Positions 3,882 through 64,000 of a stretch of DNA of 64,000 bases are shown one piece after another (position 1 is the stretch's first letter; every line of letters starts with the position of its first letter). This DNA comes from Eurosta solidaginis (taxonomy: Eukaryota > Arthropoda > Insecta > Diptera > Tephritidae). The stretch is taken from the NCBI RefSeq assembly GCF_040869045.1, contig NW_027136915.1, forward strand, positions 248,001 through 312,000. The letters are read 5' to 3'. The notes beneath the pieces were generated by a model. It saw only the letters and a program-made list of their open reading frames with translations, was not told where the DNA came from and did not search any database. The position numbers and the translations under genes are program-made.

Positions 3882-3904
3882 CTAAAACAAAAACGGTATG
3901 CCAC

Positions 3905-6587: not shown

Positions 6588-6602
6588 CTAAAACAAAAAC
6601 GG

Positions 6603-10900: not shown

Positions 10901-10949
10901 CCGTCATTCCCAAATATTGTTAATGACGATACATGTATACTTAAAATTG

Positions 10950-11296
10950 ACACTCAGTGAATCAAAAACCTTTTCATTATAAATTTCAATAAACGAGGCA
11001 TATATTCTAACCGGATTCGCTGTATTAGTTTCGGCGTTCGGGTCTGAGCTAAGTATTTCACTGAAACATCGTGGTATAATTCCTACATTCCTACCTTCAG
11101 GGCAATTCGAATTTAGTTCCACTGAATACGATTTCCCAGTTCCTGTTTGCCCATAAGCCAAAGCTGTGCAGTTGTATCCTTGCTTTACCTTGCCAACAAG
11201 GGGGCGGACATCCAAGAACAACTGCTCCTGAGTAGCCGTTGGTTTCAACACCTTATCAAAAGTAAATGGCCTACCGTCGACAACTAATCCCATCAA
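10950..11296 (-). pseudogene. nod-like: nod-like kinesin motor domain, N-terminal half only
   Basis: The frame reads VVDGRPFTFDKVL, TQEQLFLDVRPLV, then the P-loop GYNCTALAYGQTGTGKSYS, GIIPRCFSEIL and YASFIEIYNEKVFDSL. The P-loop (GQTGTGKS) binds ATP, and the CTALAYGQTGTGKSYS wording is characteristic of nod-type kinesins. Switch I, switch II (DLAGSE) and the rest of the motor are missing: the sequence runs into tail-like sequence within about 60 bp, so roughly 200 residues were deleted. It is in the same frame as the SRA1-like exon upstream, separated only by a TAA at 11,297-11,299. Confidence 0.75.
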
Positions 11297-42931: not shown

Positions 42932-42944
42932 TGGTGACCCCGAC
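42932..42944 (+). promoter_or_regulatory. G1 primer-binding site
   Basis: TGGTGACCCCGAC directly follows the LTR and precedes gag; this sequence is the common minus-strand primer site of many insect gypsy elements. The identical site in G2 is at 62,809-62,821 on the minus strand. Confidence 0.75.
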
Positions 42945-42969
42945 AGAGCTTTGTGAATATTTTTCAAGC

Positions 42970-43895
42970 ATGTTCAACTCTCCACAACTAGCGCCAATAA
43001 CCAGAAGTTTCGCGAGCCGTGGTTTATACGAATCCGAACAGCCACAACTTTATCAGCATGAAATGGAACAACAAGAGGAACATTTTGCTGATGCATCCAA
43101 CATCATGGTCAACCCATCAAGTGCAGCAGCAGCCGTGTTAATTAAATCACAGCCACCAAAACTACAAGGATATGCAGTAACTAATATCCATTCATGGTTT
43201 ATTCGACTAGAAGCATACCTTCAGATTCATGGTTTGCAGCAGGATGAAGATAAGTTTAACGCCACCATCGTCAATTTAGATGAGCGCTTTTCGATCAAGC
43301 TTATGATGTTATCGACAATCCACCAATCAGCAACAAGTTCGGAGTCCTTAAATAAACTCTCATTGATAAATTTTCAGCGTCATCTTTAACTCGTCTAGAG
43401 CAATTGTCCTCCGGTATACAATTAGGTGACAACAAACCAAGTCGTATGTTGACACAGCTTCAAAGAACTAAGGTTACGCGTGATCAACAAATTATAAAAG
43501 ACTTTTGGCTGCAACCTTTACCAGCTGCAGCACGTGCAGTAATTGTTGGTGTAACTAAAACCCAACCGTCCATGTCAGTTGAAAGCCTTGCTAAAATTGC
43601 TGATGAGATAATTGACACTATGCGTAACAGCATTATTGAAGCTGTAGGCACGCAACAACATGTCGAAGCTGTTCACAACAGTAGTAATCGCCATAACCAC
43701 GATCGATTTTCACAAATTGAGCAGCCCATTGATCGTTTGGAAAGTAAACTTAATCAGTTACTCAGAAGCGATGCTCAAACTTCAAAATTATCATCGCCTG
43801 TTAACATAAAAACTGCCGATGTGTGCTGGTATCACACAAAATTTGGTGAAAAAGCAAATCAGTGCCAGAAACCCTGTTCTTATCAAAAAAACTAG
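42970..43895 (+). CDS. G1 gag, two overlapping frames
   Basis: The first ATG at 42,970 opens MFNSPQLAPITRSFAS; the first frame continues PPKLQGYAVTNIHSWFIRLE to a stop at 43,387. The second frame (-1 relative) carries LEQLSSGIQLGDNKPSRML to the zinc-binding CWYHTKFGEKANQCQKPC and ends TAG at 43,893. The frame change must lie between 43,356 and 43,386 and includes an A-AAT-TTT heptamer (43,368-43,374). The same arrangement is in G2. Gag would assemble the particle and bind RNA through the single knuckle. Confidence 0.82.
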
Positions 43896-43932
43896 CTTCG
43901 TCGACGACGTCATTTGATAGCGTCGTCGATGA
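43886..43932 (+). promoter_or_regulatory. Programmed -1 frameshift signal, gag to pol (G1)
   Basis: The slippery heptamer A-AAA-AAC lies at 43,886-43,892 in the gag frame, directly before the gag stop TAG. Five bases later a 12-bp stem (43,898-43,909 with 43,921-43,932; one G-U pair) closes an 11-nt loop. A -1 slip gives continuous reading into the protease frame. Heptamer type, spacing and stem all fit a canonical retroviral -1 site. G2 has the identical signal at 61,821-61,867 on the minus strand. Confidence 0.9.
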
Positions 43933-44990
43933 TCAAATTGAAGCAAGCTCTGGACTTTCTAACAACTTGTTTTTTTTTTCGAAACTTCTTTTTATCACAG
44001 ATCGCTCCACCAAACGCAAGTTTTTAATCGATACTGGCGCAGATGTTTCCTTGATTTCTTCCTCGGGTATTGGAAATTTGACAAGAACTTCTCCCGTACT
44101 TTTCGCAGCAAACAACAGCCCTATTCCAACTTTTGGCACCATTCGAATACTGATTGATTTTGGACTTAAACGAAAATTCGAATGGACGTTTGTAATAGCA
44201 TTCACGCATTACAATATAATTGGGGCTGATTTTTTAAATAATTTCGGGTTAGTTGTTGATGTTAAAAACTCGTCTATCGTCGATGCACTCACTAAATTTC
44301 AAACGAAAGGTGTCAACATGTTAAGCAAAAATTACAGTTCAATCAAGACGTGTGATTCATCCTCAACCTATAGTCAGCTCTTAGCTGAATTTTCTGACAA
44401 AACTCAGTTAAACAAAATTTCATCGTCTTCATCTACGGCAACCGAGCATGTAATTGAAAGACATGGTCCACCTGTCACGGCAAAACCTCGTCGACTCACT
44501 GACGAGAAATTGAAAGCTGCAAAGGAAGAATTTTTTTTCCTTGTGCAGCTTGGCATATGTAGACCATCGAGGAGTTCGTATACCTCACCACTTCATATGG
44601 TTCGTAAACCTAACGGATCTTGGCGGCCTTGCGGGGACTATAGAGCACTCAACGCACAAACGATGCCAGATAAATAACCCTTGCCACACATACAAGACAT
44701 TAGTAATATTATGTACGGAAAGTGTATTTTTAGTAAAATCGATTTAAATCGTGCTTATAATCAAATTCCGATTAGAACGGAGGATATTCCGAAGACGGCT
44801 ATCATAACACATTTTGGCCTTTTCGAGTTTACACGTATGACATTTGGCCTTTGTAACGCAGCACAGACATTCCAGCGTTTCATGCATGAAGTTTTATCAG
44901 GTTTAGAATTCACATTTTGCTATCTGGATGACATTTGTGTAGCGTCGTCATCATCAGCTGAACATTTACAACATTTGCGTAAAGTTTTTA
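43893..44990 (+). pseudogene. G1 protease and reverse transcriptase, truncated
   Basis: The frame entered by the -1 slip contains a retropepsin (FLIDTGADVSLISSS, NIIGADFLNNFGLVVD) and the RT start (LVQLGICRPS, SPLHMVRKPNGSWRPCGDY). A TAA at 44,675-44,677 replaces the Tyr codon expected before PLPHIQDI; the frame then continues to [15 protein letters not shown] and the catalytic YLDD (44,921-44,932). The sequence is cut at about 44,990. The stop is shared with G2. Confidence 0.9.
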
Positions 44991-46735
44991 TATTCAGTTG
45001 AGCAGAGCTCACAGAGCATATTAACTTTGATTGGATAACGGTTGGTTGTAAAGGTATAAAGGAATCGAGATAGATATAGACTTCCATATATCAAAATCAT
45101 CAGTATCGAAAAACAAGTAAGGAAGGCTAAGTTCGGGTGTAACCGAACATTACATACTCAGTTGAGAGTTATGGAGACAAAATAAGGGAAAATCACCATT
45201 TAGGAAAATGAACCTAGGGTAACCCTGGAATGTGTTGTTTGTACGATATGGGTATCAAATGAAAGGTGCTAATGAATATTTCATTCATTCATTTCATTTT
45301 AAAAGGGCGTGGGCCTTAGTTCTATAGGTGGACGCCTTTTCGAGATATCGCCATAAAGGTGGACCAGGGGTGACTCTAGAATTTGTTTGTACGATATGGG
45401 TATCAAAAGAAAGGTGTTAATGAGTTTTTTAAAAGGGCGTTGGCCTCAGTTCTATAGGTGGACGCCTTTTCGAGATATCGCCATAAAGGTGGACCAGGGA
45501 TGACTCTAGAATTTGTTTGTTCGATATGGGTATCAAATGGAAGGTGTTAATGAGTATTTTAAAAGGGAGTGGGCCTTAGTTCTATAGGTGGACGCCTTTT
45601 CGAGATATCGCTATAAAGGGGGACAAGGGGTCGCACTAGAATCTGTTTGTACGATATGGGTATCAAATGAAAGGTGTTGATGAGTATTTTAAAAAGGAGT
45701 GGGCCTTAGTTCTATAGGTGGACGCATTTCGGGATATCGCCATAAAGGTGGACCAGGGGTGACTTTGGAATTTATTTGTACGACATGGGTATCAAATAAA
45801 AGGTGTTAATGAGTATTTTAAAAGGGAGTGGGCCTTAGCTCTATAGGTGGACGCCTTTTCGGGATATCGTTATAAAGGTGGACCACGGGTGCCTCTAGAA
45901 TGCGTTTGTACAATATGGGTATCAAACGAAAGGTGTTGATGAGTGTTTTAAAAGGGAGGGGGGGCATTAGTTCTATGGGTGGACGCCTTTTCGAGATATC
46001 GCCATAAAGGTGTTCCAGGGGTGACTCTAGAATTTTTTGTACGATATGGGTATCAAATGAAAGGTGTCAATGAGTATTTTAAAAGGGAGTGGGCCTTAGT
46101 TTTATAGGTGGACGCCTGTTCGAGATATCGCCATAAAGGTGGACCAGGGATGAATCTAGAATTCGTTTATACAATATGGGTATCAAACGAAAGGTGTTAA
46201 TGAGTATTTTAAAAGGGAGTGGGCCTTAGTTCTACGGGTGGACGCCTTTTCGAAATATCGATATAAAGGTGGACCAGGGTGACTCTAGAATTTGTTTGTA
46301 TGATATGGGTATCAAATAAAAGGTGTTAATGAGTATTTTAAAAGGGAGTGGGCCTTAGTTCTATAGGTGGACGCCTTTTCGAGATATCGCCATAAAGGTG
46401 GACCAGGGGTGACTTTAGAATTTATTTACGGTATGGATATCAAATGAAAGGTGTTAATGAGTATTTTCAAAGGGAGTGGGCCTTAGTTCTATAAGAGGAC
46501 GCCTTTTCGGTATATCGTTATAAATGTGGACCAGGGTTGACTCTAGAATGCGTTTGTACATTATGAGTATCAAACGAAAGGTGATAATTATAATGAGTAT
46601 TTTAAAAGGGAGTGGGCCTTAGTTCTATAGGTGGACGCCTTTTCGATATATCGCCATAAAGGTGGGCCAGGGGTGACTCTATAATGTGTTTGTACAATAT
46701 GGGTGTCAAATTAGGGTGTCTATTTAGGTGCAGGA
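44991..46735. repeat. Satellite-bearing element: ~150-bp tandem array
   Basis: After a ~190-bp lead (TTGAGCAGAGCTCACAGAG..., and GTTCGGGTGTAACCGAAC, a 6-bp-stem hairpin at 45,132-45,149), about eleven units of ~145-155 bp follow to 46,720. Conserved unit phrases: TACGATATGGGTATCAAATG, AAAGGTGTTAATGAGTATTT, GGGCCTTAGTTCTATAGG, ACGCCTTTTCGAGATATCGC. Divergence between units is about 5-12%. The array separates the broken ends of G1 and G2. No protein is encoded. Confidence 0.92.
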
Positions 46736-47745
46736 GAAATCGCATCATTTCGAACAAAAACATGCGTGGAATTCATTAAATTTTAATTGACAAAAGGCTT
46801 TTTAACTGTATGATGTGCCGTATCCGATGGACGCATGGATCGCATTATATCTGTTAAGTTTTTTACGAACTCGATCTGTGGAATGAATTTACTGTCGGTA
46901 AATATTTCACCCGGCAGCCTTAATGAAGCACCAAAAACCATTTCAGCAGGGCTGGCTCCAGTATCCATCGTTCTATTAAACCATTCGCTTGCGGATGATA
47001 AGCTGTTGTTTTAATATGGTTGATTCCAAGAAGTTTTGATAACTCAGTAAAAAGTGTGGATGTAAACTGCCTTCCTTGATCGGAAGTAATGCGAATTGGT
47101 ACTCCAAACCTTGAACACCAATCACTTACGAGTTTGCTTGCTACAGTTTCCGCGCTGATATCAGTAATTGGAAAAGCTTCAGGCCATCTTGAGAATCGAT
47201 CAATAACAGTAAGACAATAACGATATCCATTTGATGGGGGTAAAGGACCAATTAAATCAATATTAATGTGCTCAAAGCGCTGAGATGGAAGTACGTACCG
47301 ATGTAAAGGTGTCCATGTGTGTGTTTGTATTTTTGCGCGTTGGCAATTGATGCAGTTTTTAACGAAAATTGCAATATCTTTTTGCATGTGCGGCCACACG
47401 AAACGTTCACGAATGGTTTTAGAAGTAGCTTTGATACCGGTGTGTGCTAAGTTGTGTATTTTTGCAATTAAATTATCTCTGCAAGGACGTGGTATGAAAG
47501 GCCTTACATAAGATGTAGAAAAGTCGCAAACGATAGGATTGGACAACTGCGGAAAGTTAAAAGGTTTGAGCTGAAGAGAGGTTGTTTTAGACTCAAGAAA
47601 AACTTTTATTTCCGCTCATTTGCGCTGTTCTTTTGCTATAGTATCAAAATCTATAACTGTACTCATCGACTGCAAAGCATTTACTAGGGATAATGTATCA
47701 GCTGTAATGTTATCTTTTCCCGGAACATGTTTAATGCATGTTGAA
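46736..47745 (-). mobile_element. Gypsy element G2, 3' part: RNase H end and integrase
   Basis: Minus-strand frame: the RNase H tail CIKHVPGKDNITADTLS (47,735-47,685), then integrase with HHCC zinc site ([22 protein letters not shown]), DDE-core motifs [16 protein letters not shown] and [15 protein letters not shown], and [11 protein letters not shown]. Truncated at about 46,735 where the satellite begins, with a stop at 46,783 and a shift near 46,940. It continues upstream across the BEL insertion at 60,206. Confidence 0.9.
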
Positions 47746-48239
47746 TGTTTAGGCAGGATGCCTAACTTTTCCGCATCTGATTGCGACCACCCCAATGCAA
47801 CTCTGCAAATCGATACTCGATACTCGAATTAATTTATAACCACCCACACCATCGCCCTCATGCATGTGCATGCATGTACAGGCACGTGTATGTGTGCTTT
47901 TTGTCAGTACTCATGCATATGCATGTCGGGGTTGATGTGTGGGTGCCTTTCCCCTCCAAAACGGTGGATTTTGCGGGTCAACGGTTGTAGCTTGCTATAC
48001 AACCGGCCTCTTTGATTTCAACAGCCAACGCGTACACATCTGCCGCCAGCGATCTCTGCCGTAGTCACATATTCACAAGGTAATATATTTTCCTGTATAT
48101 TTGTTAGCTACCCAATAAAACATATCATTATAACGAGAAATCTCGTATTCTCCTATTTTTATTTCCACACGCCATATTCCCATTGAGATCGACCCCGGTG
48201 CGCCCACCTCTCCAGGATTAGACGCACAGCGGCCGAACA
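47746..48239 (+). repeat. 5' LTR of the BEL insertion
   Basis: 494 bp, from TGTTTAGGCAGG to GGCCGAACA (TG...CA ends). It is about 98% identical to the LTR at 59,725-60,205, from which it differs by a 12-bp indel and a handful of substitutions. Directly left lies TTGAA (47,741-47,745), repeated directly right of the other LTR. TTTGGTCC follows as the start of the internal region. It would supply promoter and polyadenylation signals (AATAAAACATATC near 48,114). Confidence 0.95.
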
Positions 48240-49143
48240 TTTGGTCCTATCTCACCAGGAATTGGAAACAGCACCTTAACAATACAGTCCACAACATAAT
48301 TAGCCCGAAAAATTCGTCAGGAAAAGTAGTTTGCCACCAACAAAAAAGTCTATTATTTAATACCAACGTCAAAACACTGAGCAAGCGACAGCCAGCGGAA
48401 GCCACTGCATCACACAAACTACTTGCCACATAAGCACCACTATACAAATCGCCATAAAAAGCCAGAGTAAGTGCAATATTTCTTGCCACATTTTTTTTGG
48501 TTGGTTAAAAACAATAAATAAAAAGTGCGAAAAATCATTTAAAGTGCCATACGTGATTGTAGTTAACCGCGAAAAGTGTGAAAAAACTGTGTAGTGCCAA
48601 AAAAGAAAATAAGTGCAAACGCGTTGCATTAACGTCGGTTAAGACTCCTTGTGACTATCTGGTCTGTCCCCCCACCAGCGGTAAGGCTCTCCAGACACAG
48701 CACAGGGAAGAGGTGCACATAATCTCACTTTCACAAAAATTTCACGCCATTTGACTGCGGAAAAATTTAATTTCTTTTGCGTCACTATTATTTTCACTAA
48801 TTTCCTTAATCAATCTTGTTACACAGTTTTTTGTTCTTTGTTGCATAAGATCTATTTCACGGTTTCACACTTTTCGTCGAGTTTATATCAACGCGCGCAC
48901 TTAGTATACAATACAATTTAACTTGGAAGTGGCGAGTGGCCCCCTTTATTTACACAAAACACATTGGTGTTGCTTCCCCCTGCTCCCTGTTTTACGGCAC
49001 AATAGTCTGCAAAGTCAGACAAAAATAAACAAATTAAAAGTAATAATCAATTCTGCGTAATTTTAATAGTTGTTGGTTGGGTGTTTCGCTCAGGTTTTTT
49101 CAAGTTTATATCCCTTGGTTAATTCGCTTTCCACTTTTCAACC
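48240..49143 (+). other. BEL leader, noncoding
   Basis: Starts TTTGGTCCTATCTCACCAGGA, the usual opening of the internal region after a BEL 5' LTR and probable primer site. No long frame. A possible splice donor (CAGAGTAAGT, about 48,466) is seen but untested. Runs to the gag ATG at 49,144. Confidence 0.65.
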
Positions 49144-52100
49144 ATGAACATGGACTCCTACATTAGATTGGCCGATCGAATAATCGAATTCGAGGCCGAT
49201 TTTAATGATATCAATGCGGCTCTGCACACTATACACACTCTTGCAATACAGCAAAAAGAGTTGCAAGCTAAGTGGGACAAAGCAGAGAACGCCCTAGAGG
49301 AGTTGCTTGGCTCTGACACGCTCGACGCAAAGAAAATTGCAGCGGTCAAGATCAAGCATAAAGCGGCATATGCCGTATTCCTAAGATGCATGCCGAACAT
49401 GGCTGAACTTCAAGCCAAATTGAAGGAGGAAAAAGATAGGGCAGTCAAACCTGAGGGAGAACGTGCGCGCGAACATAGTATCCGCCTGCCAGCTTGTGAT
49501 ACTGAGGTGTTCAAGAGCGACTACCTATCTTGGCCAACGTTTCGTGACCTGTTCACGGCCATATACAAAAACAACAGTCACCTAAGCCCGGTAGAAAAGT
49601 GGTTCCACCTCAATCAGAAAACTCAAGGTGAGGCAAAGGACACCGTCAAGAAATGTCCCTTGACAAATGAAGGCTGCGAAACAGCCGGGAAAAACCTATG
49701 TGAGAGATACGAGAATAAGCGGATTCTCGTAAACTCTCAACTACAAATTTTGTTTAATCTAAAAAAGATAGATAGCGAGTGCGGCAGCTGTATCAAAACC
49801 TTACAGCGCGACATAAATAATTGCTTGGCATCTTTAAAAACACATCAGATCGATGTTTAAAATTGGGATGCGATTATTACCTATTTATGTTCGACGAAAT
49901 TACCTGAAAATACGTTGGCTCTCTGGGAGCAGAGCATTGACCACAAGACGGACATATCCAAGTGGGAGGATATGGACAAATTCTTGTCAAATCGTTTCCA
50001 GACACTTGAAACCGTGTCTGGTTTTACAGGGAATGCCACTTCTAAAGTGCAAAAATCAAACACGTCGCGCCAGTCGACGGAAAACCCTACAAAAAGACTT
50101 GGTGCTTTTCAAACCAAAGTAACCAAGCAAACAACAAAATCAATGTGTAAAATGTGCAAATCTACGGAGCACAGATTACGCAACTGTTCACGCTTTTGCG
50201 ATTTAAACCCGGTAGAAAGGATTAAATTCGTCAAATCCACAAATGGCTGCCTGAATTGTTTATCCCCAGGACACACAGTGACGAGGTGCACCAGTTCATA
50301 CAACTGTTCCAAATGCCACTCTCGTCACCACACGCTCCTGCATGCGGACACACTTCAGCAACCGGCGGGACGAAATCCCTTCAAAGATGCGGATAATGCC
50401 CCACCAACTTCGGCACAGGCAAGGAAAAGACAGGAATCGGGACAACCACCTTCCTCTGCAAATCAGAATGTCAAATCCTGCCATGCCAATTCCAGCACAG
50501 GCGTGCTATTAGGAACTGCTCGCGTACACATTCACCATAATGGTACCGACTTCTCCGCGCGGGCATTAATTGATTCTGGGTCTGAATGTTCCTTTATAAC
50601 TGAAAGACTGAAACGCAGAATCAATTTGCCAGCGAGGAAAATGCATGCCCATGTTTCAGGCATCACAAATGCGGTGTCAGCTCTGGTGAAAGAAGCATCC
50701 AACATCGAACTACGTTCACCAGTGGATCCCTGCTTCAGCCTGACTACACCCGTACTAGTTCTAACTAAACTCACTGGGAATCTTCCATCCTGCCATATCA
50801 ACGCAATGACTATGCAGGCATTCCCAGACTTAGTTTTGGCAGGCAAGAGGTTCTACGTCAACGAAGACGTAGACCTCATACTTGGCGGAGACATATATCC
50901 CCAAATTATAATGAGCGGTATAAAGAAGAATGTGTTAAACACACTCTTAGCCCAAGAGACAGTGTTCGGTTGGATAATAACCGGTCGTATCGAATCACCG
51001 AATCCAACGAAGAGCATTATGTCTTTCTACAACGAGGTTGCGTTAGACAACCAACTCAAAGCTTTCTGGGAGGTAGAAAATGTACACAAAAATAAAATAT
51101 TAAATGAGGATCAAAGGTACTGCGAACAACTATTTAAAGAAACAACGCAGCGAAGTGAGAATGGAAGGTACACCGTGTCACTACCATTCCGGCAGGATTA
51201 CCCTAACAATATTAACTTAGGACCATCCCTGAAGCGTGCATGCTCTCAATTCTTCCGGAATGAGGGGCGGCTAATAAAAAACCCAGACTTAGGTAAAGAG
51301 TATGTTCGAGTGTTGTCAGAATATGAAACGCTCGGACATATGAGAAAAACTGAAAAGAATTTTCCATCCGACGATTCGGATAATTATTTTCTGCCCCACC
51401 ACGCCGTTATTAAAGCGGAAAGTACCACTACAAAGGTACGCGTAGTATTCAATGCCTCGAGCCCTACGGCCAACGGGAAGATCCTAAATGATATTATACT
51501 CCCAGGCCCAGTTCTACAAGCCGATCTACCCATCCTCATATTACGGTGGAGGCTATACCGTTTCGTCTTCAATAGCGACATCGAAAAGATGTATCGGCAA
51601 ATTTGGGTGAACGAAAATCACACCAAATTTCAACGTATTGTGCATCGCACTTCCCCGAATGACCCTATTAGTCTTTACGAATTAAAGACGGTTACCTTCG
51701 GAGTGAATTGCGCTCCATATCTCGCGATAAGAACGCTCCTACAACTGGCTGACGACGTCGCAAATTCACACCCTACAGCGGCTAACATACTAAGAGAGAG
51801 TATGTACGTAGATGATGTTTTATCTGGAGGACACACAATAGCGTCAACCATCAAAGCAAGAAAAGAGATTCACGAAGCCTTACACTCAGCTGGCTTTCCA
51901 TTACGCAAGTGGACTCCAAACTGTAAGGAAATTCTAAAGGACATCCCCAAAACGGACTTGCTCAGCGAGGATTTCTTAGCGTTCGAAGAAGCTAGTTCGG
52001 TAAAAGCCCTGGGAATACGATGGAACGCTCGCTCAGACGTATTTTATTTCAAGGCAGGAACCCTGGAAAATGGTGCAAACATCACCAAACGAGCAGTCCT

Positions 52101-52270
52101 ATCCGCTATAGCCAAACTTTTCGACCCTTTAGGCTGGCTTGCGCCTATGGTCATTGTGGCAAAAATACTCATGCAGAGTATTTGGTTGGAAGGCACCGCT
52201 TGGGACGAACCAGTATCTACCTGTACCTGCACCTGTGGACGGATTCAACGATCGTCCTCGCATGGATAAG
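49144..52270 (+). pseudogene. BEL gag-protease-reverse transcriptase polyprotein
   Basis: One frame from ATG 49,144 with a single TAA at 49,858-49,860. Gag DUF1759: RLPACDTEVFKSDYLSWPTF, FHLNQKTQGEAKDTVKKCPL. Knuckles: CKMCKSTEHRLRNC, CLNCLSPGHTVTRC, CSKCHSRHHTLLH. DUF1758 protease: ALIDSGSECSFIT, LILGGDIYPQII, LLAQETVFGWIITG. RT: FLPHHAVIKAE, VRVVFNASSP, FNSDIEKMYRQI and MYVDDVLSGG (YVDD at 51,805-51,816). The frame ends after WDEPVS because of the RNase H deletion. This is the best template for what the stand-alone DUF1758 proteins have lost. Confidence 0.92.
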
Positions 52271-54078
52271 GAAACCGCCCTGTTCCTGGTCAACCTTCGT
52301 CGCACATCGGATCACCAAGATCATCGACATGGTCGGACATAGGGACTGGTTGCACGTGAACTCAGAGTCCAACCCAGCAGATTTAGGTAGCAGAGGAGTA
52401 CCTGCGTCTGAATTGGTCAACAATTCGTTGTGGTGGCAGGGACCTTCTTGGCTGCAAGAAGACACTTCCCAATGGCCAGCACAAGAAAGTGACTACATCA
52501 CCTCCGTAGAGGAAAAGAGGGCAAAGACCTGCGCAACAACAACCGTCAATCCTACCGATATTCTTCAACGTTTTTCCGACCTACCTAGGGCTCTACGGGT
52601 CTTATCATACGTTATGAGGTTCTACCGAAGAACCCACCCCGAAACAAAAAATTCATTCCAGGTCATGTCGCACTTAATCTCCCCTGATGAAATTAAGGCC
52701 ACTACACGACTTTTAATTAAGATCTATCAGAAACAACATTATAGTTCCGAATATAATTATCTAAAGGCCGGAAAACCAATAGGAGGGAAAGTGCAATACT
52801 TTAACTTAATCCCTACTTAGACCAAGATGGCATCATTCGGGTAGGAGGGCGACTCGGGGCGTCAAAGGACTTAGCCTTTAATGAACGCCACCCAATCCTC
52901 CTCCTATACAACTGCAGGTTATCCCGTCTTACAGTCCTAATGTTTCATCAACAAAGTCTGCATGGGGAAAATCAACTCATGTTGCGTCTGATACGCACCC
53001 AATACTGGATACCTAACATCAAAACCATGATTAGGGCAACCATTCATAATTGCAAAACCTGCACTATTCACCGAAAACAGGCGCAGTCCCAACTCATGGG
53101 TACCCTTCCCTGCGAACGGACTACTTTTACCCGCGCGTTCACCAATACCGGGGAAGACTTTGCGGGGCCTTTCGACATCAAAAGCTACCGCGGTAGGGGA
53201 TGTCGACTGTCAAAAGGCTACGTATGCCTTTTTGTCTGTTTCTCCACTAAGGCCATCCACTTAGAAGCCACTAGTGACCTTAGTACTCCCTGCTTTCTCG
53301 CAGCCTTTGCGCGTTTTATCGCGAGAAGAGGATGTCCGAAAAACATCTACTCCGACAATGGTACAAACTTTGTCGGAGAGTCAAGATCTTTACGATCCGA
53401 GTTTAAAGCCTTCCTGGCAAAAAGCCGAGACAAAACAGTCTCAAAGTACAATCATCAAGCATTAAGCTGGCATTTTATTCCCGCCGCTGCTCCACATATG
53501 GGCGGCTTGTGGGAGGCGGGAGTGAAGAGCTTCAAAAGCCACTTCAAAAAGATCGCGTCTCCCCATAAGTACACCATGGAGGAGTTCCAAACCCTTTTGT
53601 GCAGGATTGAGGCGTGCCTCAACTCGCGCCCACTTAGTCCAGGTTCGAATGACCCAACGGATCTGGAACCACTAACCCCAGGACATTTCCTACCGGCAGC
53701 CACCTACTGGCTCCGCCAGAACCAGAGGCTAGTGAAAGCTCTGCCTCGATGATAAATCGGTGGCAGAAACTCAAAGCCCTCCATCATACTTTCTGCAAGC
53801 GATGGAAGGCGGAATATCTATCCGAACTTCAAAAACGAGTGAAGTGGAAGCATCCCAAAGAAAACATACAAGTGGGAGATCTCGCCGTCCTCAAAGAGGA
53901 CAACTTATCTCCCAACGAATGGAGGTTAGGACGAGTCGTCAATGTACACCCCGGCGAAGATAACCGAGTACGTGTAGTCGACCTCATGACCGAGAAGGGT
54001 CAAGTCAGACGACCTTTGGTCAAACTGATCCTTCTCCCTACGGAGATCGATTGTGAGAGGACCACGGGCTCCTCTTAA
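52230..54078 (+). pseudogene. BEL RNase H remnant and integrase
   Basis: LWTDSTIVLAWIRKPPCSW marks the second half of RNase H. After a frameshift near 52,800 the integrase follows: zinc site (HQQSLHGEN; CKTCTIHRK), catalytic Asp in GEDFAGPFD, Asp in YSDNGTNFVGE, Glu in GLWEAGVKSFK. A one-base loss near 53,690 shifts the frame before the C-terminal GDLAVLKEDNLSPNEWRLGR domain, ending at 54,078. Confidence 0.9.
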
Positions 54079-54209
54079 CAATCCCTCCTTTCCTCCCCAT
54101 CCCTCTTTTCAAAATCTACCCTAACCTAACGCAGATCCTCTATCTACCACAGAACCTAGATGGACTCAGCCCATTCTACCCTTAAGCTTCCAAAGCAAAC
54201 CCAAATTCA

Positions 54210-54497
54210 CTCGTTCTCCCATAACGAGGACACCAGAAACCATCCCATTCACTCGTTATCCCATAACGAGGACATCATAAAAGCCTAACGCAGAAGGGCG
54301 AACCGATCTGCCACAGAACCTAAAGGCGTTCAGCCCATTATCTTTCTTAATGCCCAGCTCTCGTTCACCCCGAACGAGGCCAACAACCCGCTTAACCCAG
54401 CTCTCGTTCACCCCGAACGAGGCCAACAACCCGTATAACCCTGCTCTCGTTCCCCCGAACGAGGCCAACACAATCCTGACGCAGATCCCCAATCTGC
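54210..54497 (+). repeat. Series of small hairpins in BEL 3' region
   Basis: Stems CTCGTTCT/ATAACGAG (54,210, one mismatch), CTCGTTAT/ATAACGAG (54,252-54,270), CTCGTTC/GAACGAG (54,360-54,378; 54,403-54,421; 54,446-54,463) and GCAGAT/ATCTGC (54,481-54,497; weaker one at 54,131). Loops are 3-5 nt. Stem variants are compensated on both sides. Confidence 0.88.
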
Positions 54498-54572
54498 CAC
54501 ACAACACAAATAAAAACCACCCGCTCCCCGAAGGTCGCTGGTTTTACTACATATGCATTAAATTTGACTTAC

Positions 54573-55337
54573 GATTCACGACCTTCTTCGTTCATATGGG
54601 CATTTGGATTGAAATTGTTTACTTGGAGCTCTTGCGAATCTTCATCAGTATTATGACTTGGAGTATTACGAGTGTAAACTCATCATCATCTTTCGGGTCT
54701 GGTGCATAAGAGTCCTAAACTCATTTGAATATTAATAAACATTTGGCATACCAATCGAATATTTTATTCGGAGATACATACCTCCTCATCTTCAACTTTT
54801 GGCATATCTGGCGAGTAATAGAGCGTTTGTGCTGGCTGAGTTTGTACACTGTTCATTAGTTGGTTTTCTTGATGTTGGAAATTTTTAGCATTTCGTATAA
54901 TTTATTGCATATCGGCAAAAGTTAGATGAAAGGGCAAAGGTGGTACTGGTACATCCGTATTATTTGAAATAGCTTGTCTCATTTCCGGTAATGTCATATT
55001 GTAAGAAAATATGGGTGCAGGGTTTGAGGTGGATGGTGCATCAGGGTTATTGGCATTAACTGCATTGCCGCTCATATTATGAGTGAATAACATAGACCCG
55101 CCAGCGGCGGCAGCACTATTCGCACCCATAGCAGCAACAGCTGCGGCTGCATTTTGTCTTTGAAGAGCTGCCTGCAAATTCTTTCTTGTCAAGAATAGGT
55201 TTGCGTTCATGTTGTACAGAACCACTTCGCATTCCACTGGCTAAACATTTTTGTAGACGACAAAATTGACAGCGATTTCGATGATGTTTTGGTAACTTCA
55301 CAATTCATAGAACCACAACATCGATATCCCAATTGTT
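54573..55337 (-). pseudogene. Hr78: Hr78-like nuclear receptor, DNA-binding domain end and hinge, with intron
   Basis: The minus strand encodes [18 protein letters not shown], then (after one extra base) [19 protein letters not shown] and VQHERKP, the second zinc finger and C-terminal extension of an NR2C/NR2D-type receptor such as Hr78. A Gln/Ala/Asn-rich hinge follows in another frame, with an in-frame TAA at about 54,903, to DMPKVEDEE and a GTATGT donor (54,781). A 67-bp intron (54,781-54,715) leads to a second exon (54,714-54,573; DSYAPDPKDDDEFT) ending at GTAAGT; it contains a frameshift. Such receptors bind hormone-response DNA. Retained introns show a genomic copy. Confidence 0.78.
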
Positions 55338-55340
55338 TGC

Positions 55341-56966
55341 GGTGGAACGGCATCAAAAAAAATCAACAACTCTCACAAAACAGAGAAAGCCGTCAACAAG
55401 CAGTTCAGATGACTTTTTTAATGACGACTCAAACGATGAATCATACAAAGAGGATCTAGAAGATGAGCTAGACAAGATGTATCGTGCAATTGCTAAAGAT
55501 AGCGATTCTAATTTTTCGGATGAATCTAAAATTGTCACCACACGCCCCATAAAGCGAGTTAAACAACAACCACAGCAACGCAAAACTCCTATTGGGCCAC
55601 CGAATGCCTCTACAACGCCACGTCCAACTGCCTCTACCACGCCACGTCCAACTATCACAACAACGCCACGACCAACGTCTACAGTCGCCCAAAAAAGTCA
55701 GCCTTCACAATTGCTACTTCTCAGAAAATCCTTTGCTGCTAATGTAAATCGTTCGATTGAGCCTATGGCAGGTGTTAAGCGTGCTCGTAATGATTTAGAT
55801 ATCAGCGATAGTGACGCAGATGTATCGGGCATCGCGCGGAAACGCTTCTTATTAGCAAAGTCATCATCAAATGTGGCAAGCGGTAGAGATAATGAACAAC
55901 AGCAACAACATAATAAAACTTCAAATTCCAGCGAGATTACTATGCTTATGAGAAAGACGAATCAACAACAACGGCAAACTCTAAATGGTAGAAAAATAAT
56001 TAAGTTAAAAACGGATGGTCTTGCATTATTGGAGGAACCAAAACGAAATACAACAACAAGAATTATAGAAAAGCGTACATTAATGGATGGTAACTGTGTT
56101 ACATTGAGGATGACGCAGCAACCTAGATTTCTACAAACTGTGCGTAGTAATAATAGTAATATTAAAACTACAGCAAAATCTTCCACACAAACATCAACTT
56201 CAACATCACGCACTCTTATAACAATGCCAAAGAAAATGCAACATGCGCGCCGTCTGTCTTTACCAAAACGTCGAAGTACGTCATCTGCTATTACGAAGCC
56301 GATACCAAAGTCTACAGTCAAGCGTAAATCAACAAATGAGAGTATTGAGGAAAATAAAGCAATAGAAGCAGAACCCCTCTCAACAACTATAGAGGATTTT
56401 GAGACTATGCCCACTTTCACAATAGTCAATATAAACGATATAATTAATAAAAAAGGAGATGTACTAATTTCGAAAAGTGACAAAACACAGAAATTAGATG
56501 ACAACGATATGTCAGATGATTACGCTTTGGTAGAAAACAGAAAACCTGATGACTATTCTCCTGTTAAGCCGGAACGTCGCAAATTTGTGCCGCCCATTAA
56601 AAAAGCAAGTGGCGATGTTCGCCTGCCTAGAAGTCCTATGACCACGTCAACAAAAAGCCACCAACTCCGAAAATTCTCAATCACATACTTACAAAAAAAA
56701 AATCATCGCCAACTAATCCCAATTCATCCCCTAATAGTAATAAAGTGAACTCAAGTATTTCGTCTGATAAGCCCGCACCACGTATACTTAATTCCGTAGT
56801 AGTAACGAAAAAAAAAAAAAAAACTCAACCTGTCAAACCGATGATAGCAAATTTTGATGATTCAGATAATGAAGATTCATATCAATTTTCATTAGATGGA
56901 GATGAGGATATGGGTGGGTTAGATGAAGATAAGGACGATACAAACGATCCAACTAATTTTGTATAG
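55341..56966 (+). CDS. Unknown nuclear-type low-complexity protein, one frameshift
   Basis: A long plus-strand frame (about 470 codons) begins at or before 55,341 and reads KQRKPSTSSSDDFFNDDSND, acidic DLEDELDKMYRAIAKDSD, Thr/Pro repeats (TTPRPT x4, 55,612-55,680), basic and Ser-rich stretches, and FTIVNINDIINKKGDVLI. A frame change near 56,650 leads to PPTPKILNHILTKKK, a related KPAPRILNSVVVTKKKKK, and an acidic end (DDSDNEDSYQF) with stop at 56,964. Acidic/basic alternation suggests a chromatin or nuclear protein; no family recognised. The start may lie in a lost upstream exon, since the Hr78 breakpoint is at 55,338. Confidence 0.6.
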
Positions 56967-57702
56967 GTATCAGCAACTGTAAAGCTTTTTCAATAACACG
57001 TCGATCTAATAAAGTTTGTATTTGCGCAACTGCTGTGGCAGGACTATGCATGGGATCCATATTGAGATTTAGATTTTGCGTATTATTGTTATTTGCACTG
57101 TTGGTGAGATTTTGTAAGCATTGTGGGCTGCTATTATCCAAATAATCATCATCATCATCAATCTCCACCGCCAGTCACCTAAAAGGAAAATAGAAAGACA
57201 AAAAAATTAATTAATAAAGAGAAATAAAATTCAACAATGAAAATTAAAATAAAAGCCTGGACGTATTGTTTTTCATACCCTGTATCTGAGTAATAGTATC
57301 ATTACTGCCACGTCCTAAAACTGAATTGACAAGCGCTTCCGGAATACGTATTTGTTCTTCCACTGTAGTACGAGCTGTTGAGGCCAAACGTTGTGCTACT
57401 GCTGCAGCTTGGGCTAATGCTTGTGAAATATTAGCAGCCCCTCCGCCACCAGCGTTACTGCCATTTGAATTATTATACTCATTTCCCGGGCTGGTAAAAC
57501 GTTTCATTTCTGGACCGGAATCGTTGTCTTCATGAGAACGCTTAAAACCTGCACCCGGTGTTGGTGATGCAGCCACACCTGCGCTATTTTGCTGTGAGGC
57601 ATTTGGCTGTATCGTTGCCGCTATCTGTTTGGCACGTTGCAGTGCAGCAGCAAAGGCCTGCGATTGATTTAGGTTAGAGCGTGCTCCAGCAAATTCACTC
57701 AT
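56967..57702 (-). pseudogene. Psi-like: Psi/FUBP-like KH-domain RNA-binding protein, 5' exons
   Basis: ATG at 57,702 opens MSEFAGARSNLNQSQAFAAA, then ALQRAKQIAATIQP, FKRSHEDNDSGPEMKRF and EEQIRIPEALVNSVLGRGSN. The A(L)QRA(R/K)QIAA block, the KR..ED.....KR box and a first KH domain with GRGS are typical of FUBP/KSRP/Psi single-stranded nucleic-acid binding proteins. A donor after ATACAGG (57,278) and an acceptor (TTTTCCTTTTAG) before 57,178 define a 100-bp intron. The second exon is frameshifted at a GAT run near 57,160 and is cut at about 56,967. The other KH domains are absent. Confidence 0.68.
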
Positions 57703-59100
57703 TTTATATATATATGGATTTTTTCACTAATCTCAAAATAGTTTCTTCCCAAGTAAATTTATGGGTTTCACACTACAAATTCTATTAGATAATACTTTGA
57801 AACAATATATTATGTACCGTGATGCCTTTTTCACTTGAAAAAATCAATTATATTCTGTTTTAAGATAAAATCGCAAAAATTTAACAGACACCACATGAAT
57901 TCTTTCACGTAAAATCAGATGAATGAAGAAACGGCGAAATAGATCGAATGATTTATTTACCGTTTGTTTCAATTCATTTGAAATTTGCACTCTCTACACG
58001 GGTATGAATGTTCATTTTTCTGTTGTCTTCTACCGTTGGCATATTTGTAACCAACGTACGTACATATGTATGTATGTATTCCTACTTGGTTCGGCATATC
58101 ATATTAGTGCTGCATCAAGTGACGCACACTGGTACCGAAAACCCGCAAAAGAAACAAAATCGGGATCGGCTTTTTTGACCCGGGCAGTCACAAAACATGC
58201 TTACGCAAAAAAAAAATATATACAGGCAAACACCTCCTTCAAAATTAATTGCTCTCATTTACAAACAAAAAAAAAAAAATTTTTTCTTTTGGATGTTTGA
58301 TTTTTTTTTTGCCGTCGGTACTGTCTGCTTTTTGGCGGGGGGGTAGGAATTGTTGTTTCTCAACAACAAACATCACAAACAGTCATTATAAGGGCTCGGT
58401 ACAAAAACAATCCGAGTCCCGAAATTAAAGAATCCCGACAAGACAAAATCCCGAAATGGGAAAAGTGAACTGTTTCTACCGGCCTAGTGTGCTACTGCCC
58501 CAGTGACCTAGTTTCTTTTCAAGGGCAAGCAAGTACCTGTATGTACATATATATACTCGCACACCACAAATTCACCATACCAGCTGTCAGCTAACCAAGA
58601 AATACACGACAGAGTTGCATGGTACATTTAACATAATGGTACGTGCAGATAGAACGCGTCATGAAGAACGCATCGCCAATCTGCATGTAAGCACCGGCAG
58701 TTGGTACATTTTCCAATTTAATTACGATGCCCGCTCTTCGTCATGAGCTGTCGCACAAAATTAAATCAATACCGTCGTCAACCTCTCCGGTTCGTTTTAA
58801 ACTCGTTTTAGTCATATAGTTTAACGTACGGTTGTTAATAAAACACCACGCGTATCACGAAACCAAGTAATTTTGCGCGGGTGGCTTGGAATCACGTCCG
58901 CTCCAACCTCCCACACACCGCAATCTTGCTGGTTTTGTTGAAATACATAAGCTGCTCGAAATCACAGCACTAACTACTTTGCAAAAACGCTCTCGTCACT
59001 CCACGTCAGTTGACTAGTCATTTTACGGTGATAGGTTATATTCGTAGTCACATTTGCATGGGCGTGGGTAGGTTTTGTAGCGTAATAATATAATACACAA
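57703..59100. other. Noncoding; 5' flank of the Psi-like copy and unidentified sequence
   Basis: No supported gene. It contains CCCGAAAT-type phrases (58,420-58,460), ATGTATGTATGT runs near 58,060, and at 58,981-59,061 the inverted copy of the 20,360 repeat. It lies between host-gene sequence and the BEL 3' tail, so a breakpoint back into BEL should exist between about 57,800 and 59,200. Confidence 0.5.
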
Positions 59101-59223
59101 CTGACGAAATACATGCGCTGCAGCGAAAACGCGCATCACCCAACCAACCTCACGGCCACTCGCCCTGGCACATCCATAAAATGCCACAGTCGCCCTGAGA
59201 GCGAGACGACCACGTTATACGCT

Positions 59224-59433
59224 GGAACGGAGACCTCGGCCTCTTCGTCCAACCCAGAAAAACCTCAAAACCCTCCAGTCTGGAACGGAGACCTCTGCCT
59301 CTTCGTCCAACCAACAAAAAAACCGCAAATCTGGAATGGAGACCTCGGCCTCTCCATCCGGACCGAAAAAAAAAAACCAAAGAATAACAAACAATGGTGC
59401 CACTCTGGAACGGAGACCTCGGCCTCTTCGTCC
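59224..59433 (+). repeat. Four copies of a 27-nt hairpin
   Basis: Units at 59,224-59,250, 59,282-59,308, 59,333-59,359 and 59,407-59,433. Each has the stem GGA-a-CGGAGA with TCTTCGTCC and a loop CCTCGGCC-like; the third has TGGAGA with TCTCCATCC, changing both sides. Spacers differ in length and sequence, so only the hairpin is conserved. Confidence 0.88.
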
Positions 59434-59724
59434 AGCCTTACTGGCCATCGACAATTCACATATTACATTCTGAATTTCTATATTTAAGAATTATGTATAA
59501 TTCAATGGCAAGAAATATTCACTTCACTGTTCATAACCGCTAATTCTTTCATCTTAGCTCAGGTGGCATGCTAAGCAAGTCGAAAGGCATTCCCGGCCAT
59601 GTTGCGTCGCAGACGAACTCTTCACTTAGATTAAGTTTAGTGTGTAAGTCTTATAATAATTTTTCTCGTTTCAGCGGAGGTCATTGGCGGAAAACGATGT
59701 TGCGTATCGCAAGGGGGGCCGGCA
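59434..59724 (+). other. Probable BEL 3' internal tail before the 3' LTR
   Basis: Noncoding. Ends GTTGCGTATCGCAAGGGGGG CCGGCA just before the LTR; the purine run is a plausible polypurine tract for plus-strand priming. The same lead-in precedes the LTR-like sequence at 33,226. Confidence 0.6.
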
Positions 59725-60205
59725 TGTTTAGGCAGGATGCCTAACTTTTCCGCATCTGATTGCGACCCCCCAATGCAACTCTGCAAATCGATACTCGATA
59801 CTCGAATTAATTTATAACCACCCACACCATCGCCCTCATGCATGTGCATGCATGTACAGGCACGTGTATGTGTGCTTTTTGTCAGCACTCATGCATATGC
59901 ATGTCGGGGTGCCTTTCCCCTCCAAAACGGAGGATTTTGCGGGTCAACGGTTGTAGCTTGCTATACAACCGGCCTCTTTGATTTCAACAGCCAACGCGTA
60001 CACATCTGCCTCCAGCGATTTCTGCCGTAGTCACATATTCACAAGGTAATATATTTTCCTGTATATTTGTTAGCTACCCAATAAAACATATCATTATAAC
60101 GAGAAATCTCGTATTCTCCTATTTTTATTTCCACACGCCATATTCCCATTGAGATCGACCCCGGTGCGCCCACCTCTCCAGGATTAGACGCACAGCGGCC
60201 GAACA
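59725..60205 (+). repeat. 3' LTR of the BEL insertion
   Basis: 481 bp, TGTTTAGGCAGG to GGCCGAACA, about 98% identical to 47,746-48,239. TTGAA follows at 60,206-60,210, matching the five bases left of the 5' LTR. Immediately after it the interrupted gypsy pol resumes. Confidence 0.95.
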
Positions 60206-61858
60206 TTGAAAATTGGCCTATGAAATCTAAGTGACGAATTTGACGAGGTGTTGATGAGTCTTGTTTTTTCAAGAAAGCAAATGTTAACGGTTTGCGATCT
60301 GTCCAAATGACAAAATCGCGTCCTTCTAAAGCATATATAAAATGTTTTACAGCTAAATATATTGCCAATAACTCACGATCATATGTGCTATATTTTTGTT
60401 GAGCAGCAGATAGTTTTTTCGAAAAGAAAGAGTCTGCTTACATTGCTCGAAGTGATGTTTTGTTTCTGGCGTCCATGCAATTAGGCTTTTGTCTTTTTTC
60501 TTGTTTCCTGGAATTAACTTGATAAGGGGTTGTTGATGTACAATTGCAAGCGGAATGAATCTCCTATAAAAATGTATCATGTTCAGAAAACCTTTAAGTT
60601 CAAAAACTTTCGTGGGTATCGGATAATTCACGATGGCTTCAATTTTTGCTGGATTTGGTGCTATGCCTGTACTGGAAATCACATGTCCTAAGAAAAGTAT
60701 TTCAGACTTTCCAAATTCACATTTTGAGGGATTAATGGTGAGGCTAAAGAGACGCATCCTTTCAAAAACTTTACGCAAATGTTGTAAATGTTCAGCTGAT
60801 GATGACGACGCTACACAAATGTCATCCAGATAGCAAAATGTGAATTCTAAACCTGCTAAAACTTCATGCATGAAACGCTGGAATGTCTGTGCTGCGTTAC
60901 AAAGGCCAAATGTCATACGTGTAAACTCGAAAAGGCCAAAAGGTGTTATGATAGCCGTCTTCGGAATATCCTCCGTTCTAATCGGAATTTGATTATAAGC
61001 ACGATTTAAATCGATTTTACTAAAAATACACTTTCCGTACATAATATTACTAATGTCTTGTATGTGTGGCAAGGGTTATTTATCTGGCATCGTTTGTGCG
61101 TTGAGTGCTCTATAGTCCCCGCAAGGCCGCCAAGATCCGTTAGGTTTACGAACCATATGAAGTGGTGAGGTATACGGACTCTTCGATGGTCTACATATGC
61201 CAAGCTGCACAAGGAAAAAAAATTCTTCCTTTGCAGCTTTCAATTTCTCGTCAGTGAGTGGACGAGGTTTTGCCGTGACAGGTGGACCATGTCTTTCAAT
61301 TACATGCTCGGTTGCCGTAGATGAAGACGATGAAATTTTGTTTAACTGAGTTTTGTCAGAAAATTCAGCTAAGAGCTGACTATAGGTTGAGGATGAATCA
61401 CACGTCTTGATTGAACTGTAATTTTTGCTTAACATGTTGATACCTTTCGTTTGAAATTTAGTGAGTGCATCGACGATAGACGAGTTTTTAACATCAACAA
61501 CTAACCCGAAATTATTTAAAAAATCAGCCCCAATTATATTGTAATGCGTGAATGCTATTACAAACGTCCATTCGAATTTTCGTTTAAGTCCAAAATCAAT
61601 CAGTATTCGAATGGTGCCAAAAGTTGGAATAGGGCTGTTGTTTGCTGCGAAAAGTACGGGAGAAGTTCTTGTCAAATTTCCAATACCCGAGGAAGAAATC
61701 AAGGAAACATCTGCGCCAGTATCGATTAAAAACTTGCGTTTGGTGGAGCGATCTGTGATAAAAAGAAGTTTCGAAAAAAAAAACAAGTTGTTAGAAAGTC
61801 CAGAGCTTGCTTCAATTTGATCATCGACGACGCTATCAAATGACGTCGTCGACGAAGC
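60206..61858 (-). pseudogene. G2 protease, reverse transcriptase and RNase H start
   Basis: Entered by the -1 shift at 61,867-61,861. Protease FLIDTGADVSLI; RT SPLHMVRKPNGSWRPCGDY, a TAA at 61,076-61,078 shared with G1, then [37 protein letters not shown] and [15 protein letters not shown] further frame change near 60,360 precedes RNase H (YALEGRDFVIWTDRKPLTFAF). It is interrupted at 60,206 by the BEL insertion. Confidence 0.9.
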
Positions 61859-62783
61859 TAGTTTTTTTGATAAGAACAGGGTTTCTGGCACTGATTTGCT
61901 TTTTCACCAAATTTTGTGTGATACCAGCACACATCGGCAGTTTTTATGTTAACAGGCTATGATAATTTTGAAGTTTGAGCATCGCTTCTGAGTAACTGAT
62001 TAAGTTTACTTTCCAAACGATCAATGGGCTGCTCAATTTGTGAAAATCGATCGTGGTTATGGCGATTACTACTGCTGTGAACAGCTTCGACATGTTGTTG
62101 CGTGCCTACAGCTTCAATAATGCTGTTACGCATAGTGTCAATTATCTCATCAGCAATTTTAGCAAGGCTTTCAACTGACATGGACGGTTGGGTTTTAGTT
62201 ACACCAACAATTACTGCACGTGCTGCAGTTGGTAAAGGTTGCAGCCAAAAGTCTTTTATAATTTGTTGATCACGCGTAACCTTAGTTCTTTGAAGCTGTG
62301 TCAACATACGACTTGGTTTGTTGTCACCTAATTGTATACCGGAGGACAATTGCTCTAGACGAGTTAAAGATGACGCTGAAAATTTATCAATGAGAGTTTA
62401 TTTAAGGACTCCGAACTTGTTGCTGATTGGTGGATTGTCGATAACATCATAAGCTTGATCGAAAAGCGCTCATCTAAATTGACGATGGTGGCGTTAAACT
62501 TATCTTCATCCTGCTGCAAACCATGAATCTGAAGGTATGCTTCTAGTCGAATAAACCATGAATGGATATTAGTTACTGCATATCCTTGTAGTTTTGGTGG
62601 CTGTGATTTAATTAACACGGCTGCTGCTGCACTTGATGGGTTGACCATGATGTTGGATGCATCAGCAAAATGTTCCTCTTGTTGTTCCATTTCATGCTGA
62701 TAAAGTTGTGGCTGTTCGGATTCGTATAAACCACGGCTCGCGAAACTTCTGGTTATTGGCGCTAGTTGTGGAGAGTTGAACAT
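61859..62783 (-). CDS. G2 gag, two frames
   Basis: Same organisation as G1 gag: start MFNSPQLAP (62,783), frame change between about 62,397 and 62,366, the CxxH...C knuckle, and the gag TAG at 61,858-61,860 after the A-AAA-AAC heptamer. Only a few residues differ from G1 (for example YFSSM/YYSSM, VHNSS/VHSSS). Confidence 0.85.
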
Positions 62784-64000
62784 GCTTGAATAATATTCAC
62801 AAAGCTCTGTCGGGGTCACCAATTAAGTGCCTTAGAAAAGGATTCACTTAAATAATATCTTTAAGAAATTAATTTTTACACAAACGAATATTTTCTGAAC
62901 AACTAAACTTTTTTAATCACCAAAAAAGTCTTTTCAATATTTTTACAAAAAACTCTTAGCATATTTGTTCAAAAGAAATAATATAAAAGTACAGTGTATT
63001 GACAACAAGTATAGGCGCCACAGTATTAATAAGAATTTTAAAAGGGAGTTGTGGTAGCTGTATATGTGAAGGCGTTTTCGAGATTTCGACCAAAATGTGG
63101 ACCAGGGTGCCACAGAACATCATCTGTCGGGTACCGCTAATTAATTTATATATGTAATACCACGAACAGTATTCCTGCCATGATTCCAAGGGCTTTCGAT
63201 TTCGCCCTGCAGAACTTTTTCATTTTCTTCTACTTAATATGGTAGGTGTCACACTGTAGCATTAAGCGTCTATGCCCATCTATGCAATACATTTTGCGGC
63301 ATTACGCATCATTAACTCCTATGCAATACATTTTTAACAGCTCAATCATATTACAATATTATACAAATTATTGACCTAACACAGGGGTTACCTAACATCA
63401 ATGGAATGCCGAATATGAAACTCTTGTCTGTTCACAAATAATAAATTCTGCTTATTATCAATTTTAGTTACTCACCAAAATATTTACATACAACCAATCA
63501 TGAGAATTAACCAGACAGAATATCGATTAGCTGACGAATGCATACATATTTACATATATGCATAGCACGCATACAAATCTACATGCATGCAGACTATGCA
63601 TACAAATCTACATGTATGCAGACTATGCATACAAATCTACAGAAAGCATACCATGCTTACAAATCTACATGTATGCATACCGTGTATACCAATTTACATG
63701 TATGATTAATGTTAATACAAATGTACATATTTTTAGTATTAAGGTAATTATGAATGTGTAGGTTAAGAATATATCTATAAAAGAAAAAGGATTTGTTTAA
63801 TAAATTAATTGATGTTCAGACATTCAAACCACAAACATTTCGTTTTATAAATTTAAATATTGCATGGCGATCCTGCCAGCCTGATCTTCAATTAGCTGAA
63901 AATTTGCTCACTAAGCAAAATTCGCTAGATCTTGCTGAACAGATATCCTGCCAAGTTTTTGTCAAATATTAAAATATTAAATATATTACAAAATTTAATG

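Follow-up and report, generated by a model that had tools for sequence, protein, structure and literature searches.

Host-gene pieces between pol and the 3' long terminal repeat in a young BEL retrotransposon group of Eurosta solidaginis

A BEL retrotransposon insertion was analysed at positions 47746 to 60205 of a 64,000-base stretch of the Eurosta solidaginis genome (the window; contig C43, 248001-312000). Very probably, the element belongs to a large and young BEL group in which the stretch between pol and the 3' long terminal repeat (LTR) is a cargo zone for host sequence. Comparison of copies showed that the element already carried its cargo when it inserted, and that the cargo was mobilised together with the LTRs into separate sites, differs among copies, can derive from several genes and lies mostly antisense to the element. 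All genome searches were performed against the E. solidaginis assembly (1,907,799,307 bases, 569 contigs). Contigs are denoted C2-C6, C43 and C53, with C3, C5 and C6 of chromosome size, and the loci compared are denoted by L-numbers.

The original prediction had bounded the element as one insertion, and these bounds were upheld. The LTRs have TG...CA ends and were aligned pairwise with 477 matches, 4 mismatches and 15 gap columns; TTGAA stands on either side. When the 60-bp flanks were joined with a single copy of this target-site duplication (TSD), the reading frame of the surrounding gypsy copy was open across the joint (..HLDFIGQFSTCIKHVPGKDNITAD..), as had been predicted. The two TG...CA LTRs with a short TSD agree with the BEL/Pao type, for which TSDs range from 4 to 6 bp. 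The integrase domains Integrase_H2C2 and rve (Pfam) were found in the open reading frame (ORF) 52805-53752; the type of the reverse transcriptase was read by eye. The BEL superfamily label was taken over from the original prediction and is used here as an assumption. The end of gag-pol had been placed near 54,540; pol ends at 54078 and is followed by a 3' untranslated region (UTR) with 43-bp repeats to about 54521. The gap between pol and the 3' LTR had been ascribed to host sequence. Host pieces are indeed present there, but 58321-59724 is resident BEL sequence, common to a copy with different cargo.

By similarity to native loci and proteins, the window element carries pieces of four genes, namely eggless, Hr78, a gene designated U, and Psi. 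The names are presumed, eggless/SETDB1 for cargo of the L035 type, Hr78 for that of the L017 type and Psi for that of the L014 type, the last two as in the original prediction. The native eggless locus (L035) contains MBD and Pre-SET domains, the native Psi locus (L014) contains KH domains, and the DNA-binding part of the Hr78 piece (native locus L017) gave NR2C2 as best match in the PDB. Identity of the cargo to the native genes was 91% for eggless, 96% for Hr78 and 97% for Psi. The native Hr78 and Psi genes are located on different contigs (C5 and C3). Comparison with these loci revealed that three native introns are absent from the Hr78 part and one from the Psi piece. The Hr78 fragment had been described as containing introns; the intron-like stretch concerned (54522-54803) belongs to eggless/SETDB1, and Hr78 itself is present in spliced form. 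The first reading had missed another Hr78 piece (56940-57166), and both pieces abut in the native gene with a 4-bp overlap. The gene formerly listed as unknown was confirmed in sense orientation (55350-56939); it is now recognised as coming from the interior of a gene related to Teleopsis LOC119672745, with modest protein similarity (29-44% over parts). Its ORF 55285-56748 matched three E. solidaginis proteins at 94-97% identity in a protein search. The antisense Psi-like 5' end was retained as Psi, corrected to 57278-57919 with two exons joined without the intron. No match was obtained with a Pfam scan of the window cargo pieces, or with Psi in the PDB and in a phage collection. Parts of the resident segment next to Psi (within 57161-57254) recurred in 26 of the 40 genome matches listed, and these matches were without Hr78 and Psi.

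A second composite with the same junctions in a different target site had been named as the check for transduction before insertion, and such composites were found. Eight loci besides the window element were examined for the junctions. The BEL/eggless, eggless/Hr78 and Hr78/U junctions were present in all eight, with an A-run of varying length at Hr78/U; U/Hr78 and Hr78/resident were present in six, resident/Psi in four, and the junction of Psi with the next segment in full in three. The two loci without U/Hr78 and Hr78/resident (L026, L031) are short search loci ending within U; in L057, the continuation of L026, this part is deleted. Three of the eight loci are LTR-bounded with TSDs of their own (GGCG on C53, GCCGA at C3:190.46M, TCTAT at C5:170.94M), and a relative with Psi only, at C3:132.57M, has the TSD ATATC. 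Shared junctions together with distinct TSDs imply that the cargo moved with the element before the present insertion, and the low Kimura two-parameter distances within LTR pairs (0.0020-0.0109 in all five pairs measured) imply that this movement was recent. The cargo is bordered by the BEL 3' UTR on one side and by the resident 3' region on the other. None of the 21 other copies showed a 3' UTR running straight to the LTR without cargo over the 1.5-2.2 kb inspected, in a comparison with the LTR and 3' end of the window element that may miss diverged LTRs in the more distant copies.

Entry of host DNA into the window element after its insertion, via repair or recombination, was the other option originally considered. 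Other host-gene fragments do occur in the window outside the element, but the junctions recur at eight of eight other loci, three of which are LTR-bounded with own TSDs, and late entry at this locus was therefore rejected as extremely improbable. An assembly chimera is just as hard to credit, since the same junctions were found on C3, C5 and C6 as well as on C43 and C53. The public gene models P0001-P0003 also cross some of the junctions; apparently they were built on this assembly, and they do not constitute independent evidence.

Signs of passage through RNA were found in the eggless group. L034 (C5:120.82M) carries eggless and a convergent Nse2 in the same arrangement as native L035. In comparison with L035, two stretches in sense to BEL are exactly missing from it, a 61-bp GT...AG intron of Nse2 and, inside an antisense eggless exon, a 49-bp GTAAGT...TACTAG segment. 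The GT...AG stretches of eggless that are antisense to BEL, intron-like by their borders and frame, are retained. Loss of sense GT-AG segments with retention of antisense ones points to RNA passage, and it is the pattern expected if the eggless-Nse2 cargo travelled through BEL sense RNA as genomic or unspliced host sequence. Although antisense, Hr78 and Psi are spliced, and would for that reason have entered most simply as spliced RNA or complementary DNA (cDNA). The earlier expectation that antisense introns survive in the element RNA consequently holds for the intron-like stretches of eggless, but not for Hr78 and Psi. With host sequence inside LTRs at separate target sites, and with spliced exons or lost sense introns, the composites have the features of a gene-transducing element. 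Read-through (3' transduction) of genomic DNA adjoining BEL copies would account for the native gene order and the antisense intron-like stretches of the eggless-Nse2 cargo; it is improbable as a general source of the cargo, given spliced Hr78 and Psi with native loci on C5 and C3. No BEL copy was matched at the native eggless-Nse2 locus within 3.3 kb of L035.

On the evidence of domains in further copies, host-gene capture extends beyond the window element. Fifteen additional BEL loci (L038-L052) were obtained with the last bases of the 3' UTR as query, and six copies (L058-L063) were picked as new among the best 40 of 1815 candidate pol matches; in each, 1.5 or 2.2 kb downstream of pol was inspected. 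They comprise the same family and relatives, with pol 67-99% identical (L038-L042, 90-99% to the window element; L043-L052, 67-96%, more distant or mosaic). An identified domain, or at least 90% shared cargo with a copy having one, was found in 17 of the 21 (14/15 and 3/6, respectively). Antisense cargo comprised histone deacetylase/HDAC6 (L038, continued in L053), a weak FEM1-like match (L053; PDB E 2.3e-4, ankyrin in L054), a putatively host-derived multi-finger C2H2 protein (L039), DHX15 (L051), parts of a gene which we take to be GART (L046, L049), NHL repeats (L046, L048), RhoGAP (L060), WDR5-type WD40 (L062) and a weak Kelch match (L063; E 1.4e-4). L032 and L033 of the eggless group carry antisense RhoGAP and C1 domains, presumably of a RacGAP. 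In sense orientation were GST in L045, with a long open GST-type frame at 1796-2350, and zf-Nse in L034, where the SET domain was below its cutoff. A tentative label PPR/PTCD1-like for L034 1-267 was not confirmed, as Pfam gave no match there. No identity was assigned to the cargo of L052, L058, L059 and L061 and of L013 5040-7860; in L055, which lies downstream of L048, neither cargo nor an LTR was recognised, and the sequence runs into a tandem repeat also present in L051. L058 and L059 (C2 and C4) are 99.9% identical over 2185 bases, and L060 and L061 97% over 1286 bases. The copy at C6:37.94M, read in two stretches, has the order pol, HDAC6, FEM1-like, zinc finger, resident 3' region, 3' LTR; its 5' LTR is cut short.

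Antisense orientation to gag-pol was found for 13 of 16 named pieces (two-sided binomial p 0.021), i.e. Hr78, Psi, eggless, RacGAP-like, HDAC6, FEM1-like, C2H2 multi-finger, DHX15, GART, NHL, RhoGAP, WDR5 and Kelch; U, Nse2 and GST are in sense. Without the single-copy WDR5 and Kelch pieces, 11 of 14 are antisense (p about 0.06), and not all pieces are independent, eggless and Nse2 having entered together.

The cargo is modular. L013, outside the eight-locus junction table, has Psi without eggless, Hr78 and U, and L015 and L016 have Hr78 and U without Psi. Cargo segments of the composites are mostly 95-99.6% identical to those of the window element (U1 in C6:136.45M, 90.6%). Identity to the native genes is 91-92% for eggless in composite copies and 93-96% in L032-L034, 95-97% for Hr78 and 97% for Psi. 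This gradient fits stepwise capture; the order is not proven by it, because eggless includes introns and is less constrained.

Several observations weigh against the reading of a cargo zone filled by the BEL group itself. The LTRs of the composite copies differ from those of the window element by 9-16%, and the 5' LTRs are only 81-91% identical, gaps counted, so that LTRs are far more diverged than cargo and recombination must be invoked. No matching TSD was seen at C6:136.44M, despite near-identical LTRs, or at the tandem pair C6:27.70-27.73M, which shares a broken LTR. About 237 bp of native eggless are gone from L034 at a short repeat without splice-like borders, so not every loss is splicing. 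The cargo of L044, L046 and L048-L052 is carried by relatives with pol only 67-72% identical, and the single-copy cargo of L062 and L063 may be 3'-truncated BEL beside a host gene. The RacGAP-like cDNA piece (L033 1768-3194) is flanked by repeated GTGATGCATA (8-10 bp) in an eggless exon, and from this repeat it could also be a separate insertion.

This duplication would suit placement of cargo in a BEL master copy by LINE or Helitron machinery with later amplification by BEL, and spliced pieces are consistent with LINE-made copies as well. Such an origin is nevertheless rather unlikely: no poly(A) tails were seen at the borders of Hr78, U and Psi (no search aimed at Helitron ends was made), the pieces are directly joined with strand swaps within the cargo (Hr78-U-Hr78), and one zone is used in many copies.

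For capture by the BEL group itself, we infer that the BEL reverse transcriptase switches templates in particles that also contain host RNA. Short stretches of shared sequence would be the points at which the enzyme passes from RNA or cDNA of the element to packaged host RNA and back. Antisense cargo may be favoured as it would bring in fewer sense poly(A) signals and splice sites, and subfamilies may reshuffle cargo through recombination. The Hr78-U-Hr78 arrangement, with two pieces that abut natively with their short overlap and with eggless-like sequence at the outer ends, would follow if the enzyme had left and re-entered at one Hr78 site; a circular or tandem intermediate may have acted instead.

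An antisense C2H2 ORF of about 151-166 codons was found in L015, L016, L034 and L053; in L015 and L016 it lies where Psi sits in others. The ratio of nonsynonymous to synonymous substitution (dN/dS) was 0.30-0.48 in six of six pairs, and the frame was open in four of four copies, which had been selected for the presence of the ORF. In L015 a tyrosine stands in place of one finger histidine. Searches with single sequences and a four-row alignment gave no homologs at E <= 0.001 among the scored candidates. In the window element Psi occupies the place of this ORF, and the ORF itself was not seen. We read the ORF as a putative resident accessory gene under selection. It is conceivable, though doubtful, that selected zinc-finger first exons, an intron and an acceptor form a permanent unit of antisense transcription close to the 3' LTR, with host exons swapped behind the acceptor. 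BEL sense RNA with antisense host stretches, including those of the chromatin regulators eggless/SETDB1 and HDAC6, may then give rise to small RNAs that silence the donor genes or the element; the antisense cargo would be an exchangeable module directed against host control or protecting from it.

The features of the window element are compiled in Table 1.

Table 1. Features of the window element and its insertion site (window coordinates)
Feature	Position	Strand	Remarks
Left TSD	47741..47745		TTGAA, in minus-strand gypsy copy
5' LTR of BEL	47746..48241	+	
BEL leader	48242..49144	+	
BEL gag-pol	49145..54078	+	not intact, spread across several frames
BEL 3' UTR	54080..54521	+	43-bp tandem repeats at 54353-54470
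eggless/SETDB1 piece	54522..54803	-	antisense to BEL, intron-like stretches retained; 91% to native L035
Hr78 exons	54782..55349	-	antisense, without three native introns; about 20 bp of similar sequence overlaps eggless piece
Gene U, internal piece	55350..56939	+	sense; relative of Teleopsis LOC119672745
Second Hr78 piece	56940..57166	-	antisense; adjoins first piece in native gene
Resident antisense segment	57167..57277	-	intron-like sequence and acceptor-like site, TTTTAG followed by GTGACTGGCGG
Psi exons 1-2 and 5' leader	57278..57919	-	antisense, without native intron; native locus with KH domains
Segment found only in some family copies	57920..58320	.	
Resident BEL 3' region	58321..59220	.	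common to copies with other cargo
Tandem repeats of resident 3' region	59222..59445	+	
BEL 3' end	59461..59724	+	with purine-rich tract
3' LTR	59725..60205	+	
Right TSD	60206..60210		TTGAA

Other features of the window were recorded. Another copy of this BEL group occupies window 1-7840 and is fused to antisense sequence resembling host genes, labelled by eye as an SR-rich gene and one more gene; its unit is duplicated (1-286/3453-3947/4456-4791 versus 5876-6994) with two internal deletions. Minus-strand host fragments are SH3 at 9096-9584, kinesin motor at 10904-11296 and the Sec8 N-terminal domain at 24640-25206. The gypsy stretches 41753-44989 and 60764-64000 are inverted and 99.5% identical over 3237 bases, the second being located just past the BEL insertion. 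A 130-bp satellite beside the gypsy copy (45296-46711) also surrounds the internally deleted C53 BEL copy (L010 349-793, 8287-8889).

It is in plants that the capture of host genes by LTR retrotransposons has been described best. A maize survey reported gene fragments in 425 LTR elements, with at least 189 captures; under its conditions, no element combined fragments from two or more standard nuclear genes (PMC2774510). A plant review has proposed transduction and abnormal template switching (PMC13317346). The plant elements of both papers resemble those described here in being LTR-bounded, with internal host fragments spread by retrotransposition, whereas the window element, unlike those of the maize survey, is an animal BEL with four-gene cargo. 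In maize Bs1, sequences of different host genes were transduced into a single LTR element (PMC7264820, PMC13317346), so that multi-gene cargo has a precedent in plants; the present group differs in its many copies with varied, mostly antisense cargo. Transduced genes are usually in sense orientation (PMC7264820), in contrast to the 13 of 16 antisense pieces of this group.

Retand and related plant Gypsy elements have antisense ORFs between pol and the 3' LTR (PMC11963269, PMC7264820), most of which are described as of unknown origin (PMC7264820). The E. solidaginis group shares with Retand a long region between pol and the 3' LTR, tandem repeats, and an antisense ORF with a putative DNA-binding domain, conserved at this place in four copies. 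It differs in being BEL, not of the Gypsy lineage with a TRP28 domain, in the C2H2 type of its ORF and in having host genes in the same region.

Among animal LTR elements, those of bdelloids likewise have varied ORFs beyond gag and pol, of which DEDDy ORFs were considered likelier exchanged between retroelements than host-derived (PMC5408684). Mosquito Bel-Pao elements belong to the same superfamily and also acquired a gene, in their case a chuvirus glycoprotein (PMC7642597, PMC10084718) and not host genes as here. One capture passage, concerning env, was found among the terms examined in a BEL/Pao survey (PMC3118150). LTR-mediated retroposition in metazoans differs from the present case, in which multi-gene cargo is spread with complete elements. 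The products of such retroposition are reportedly mostly single retrocopies. They are intron-less host copies with flanking LTR regions (PMC8232201, citing Tan et al. 2016). In the literature searched, with few subscription papers, no report was found of this group or of repeated, multi-gene, mostly antisense host capture by an animal BEL.

In this BEL group, the antisense ORF and the antisense captures share one region. As young copies with varied cargo and the native donors are present in the same assembly, the capture steps are datable. The finding also affects the annotation of E. solidaginis. The public gene models P0001-P0003, named mucin-2-like, proteoglycan 4-like and putative mediator subunit 26, match captured U in BEL cargo, and by their ends P0001 fits the copy at C5:170.94M and P0002 that at C6:136.45M.

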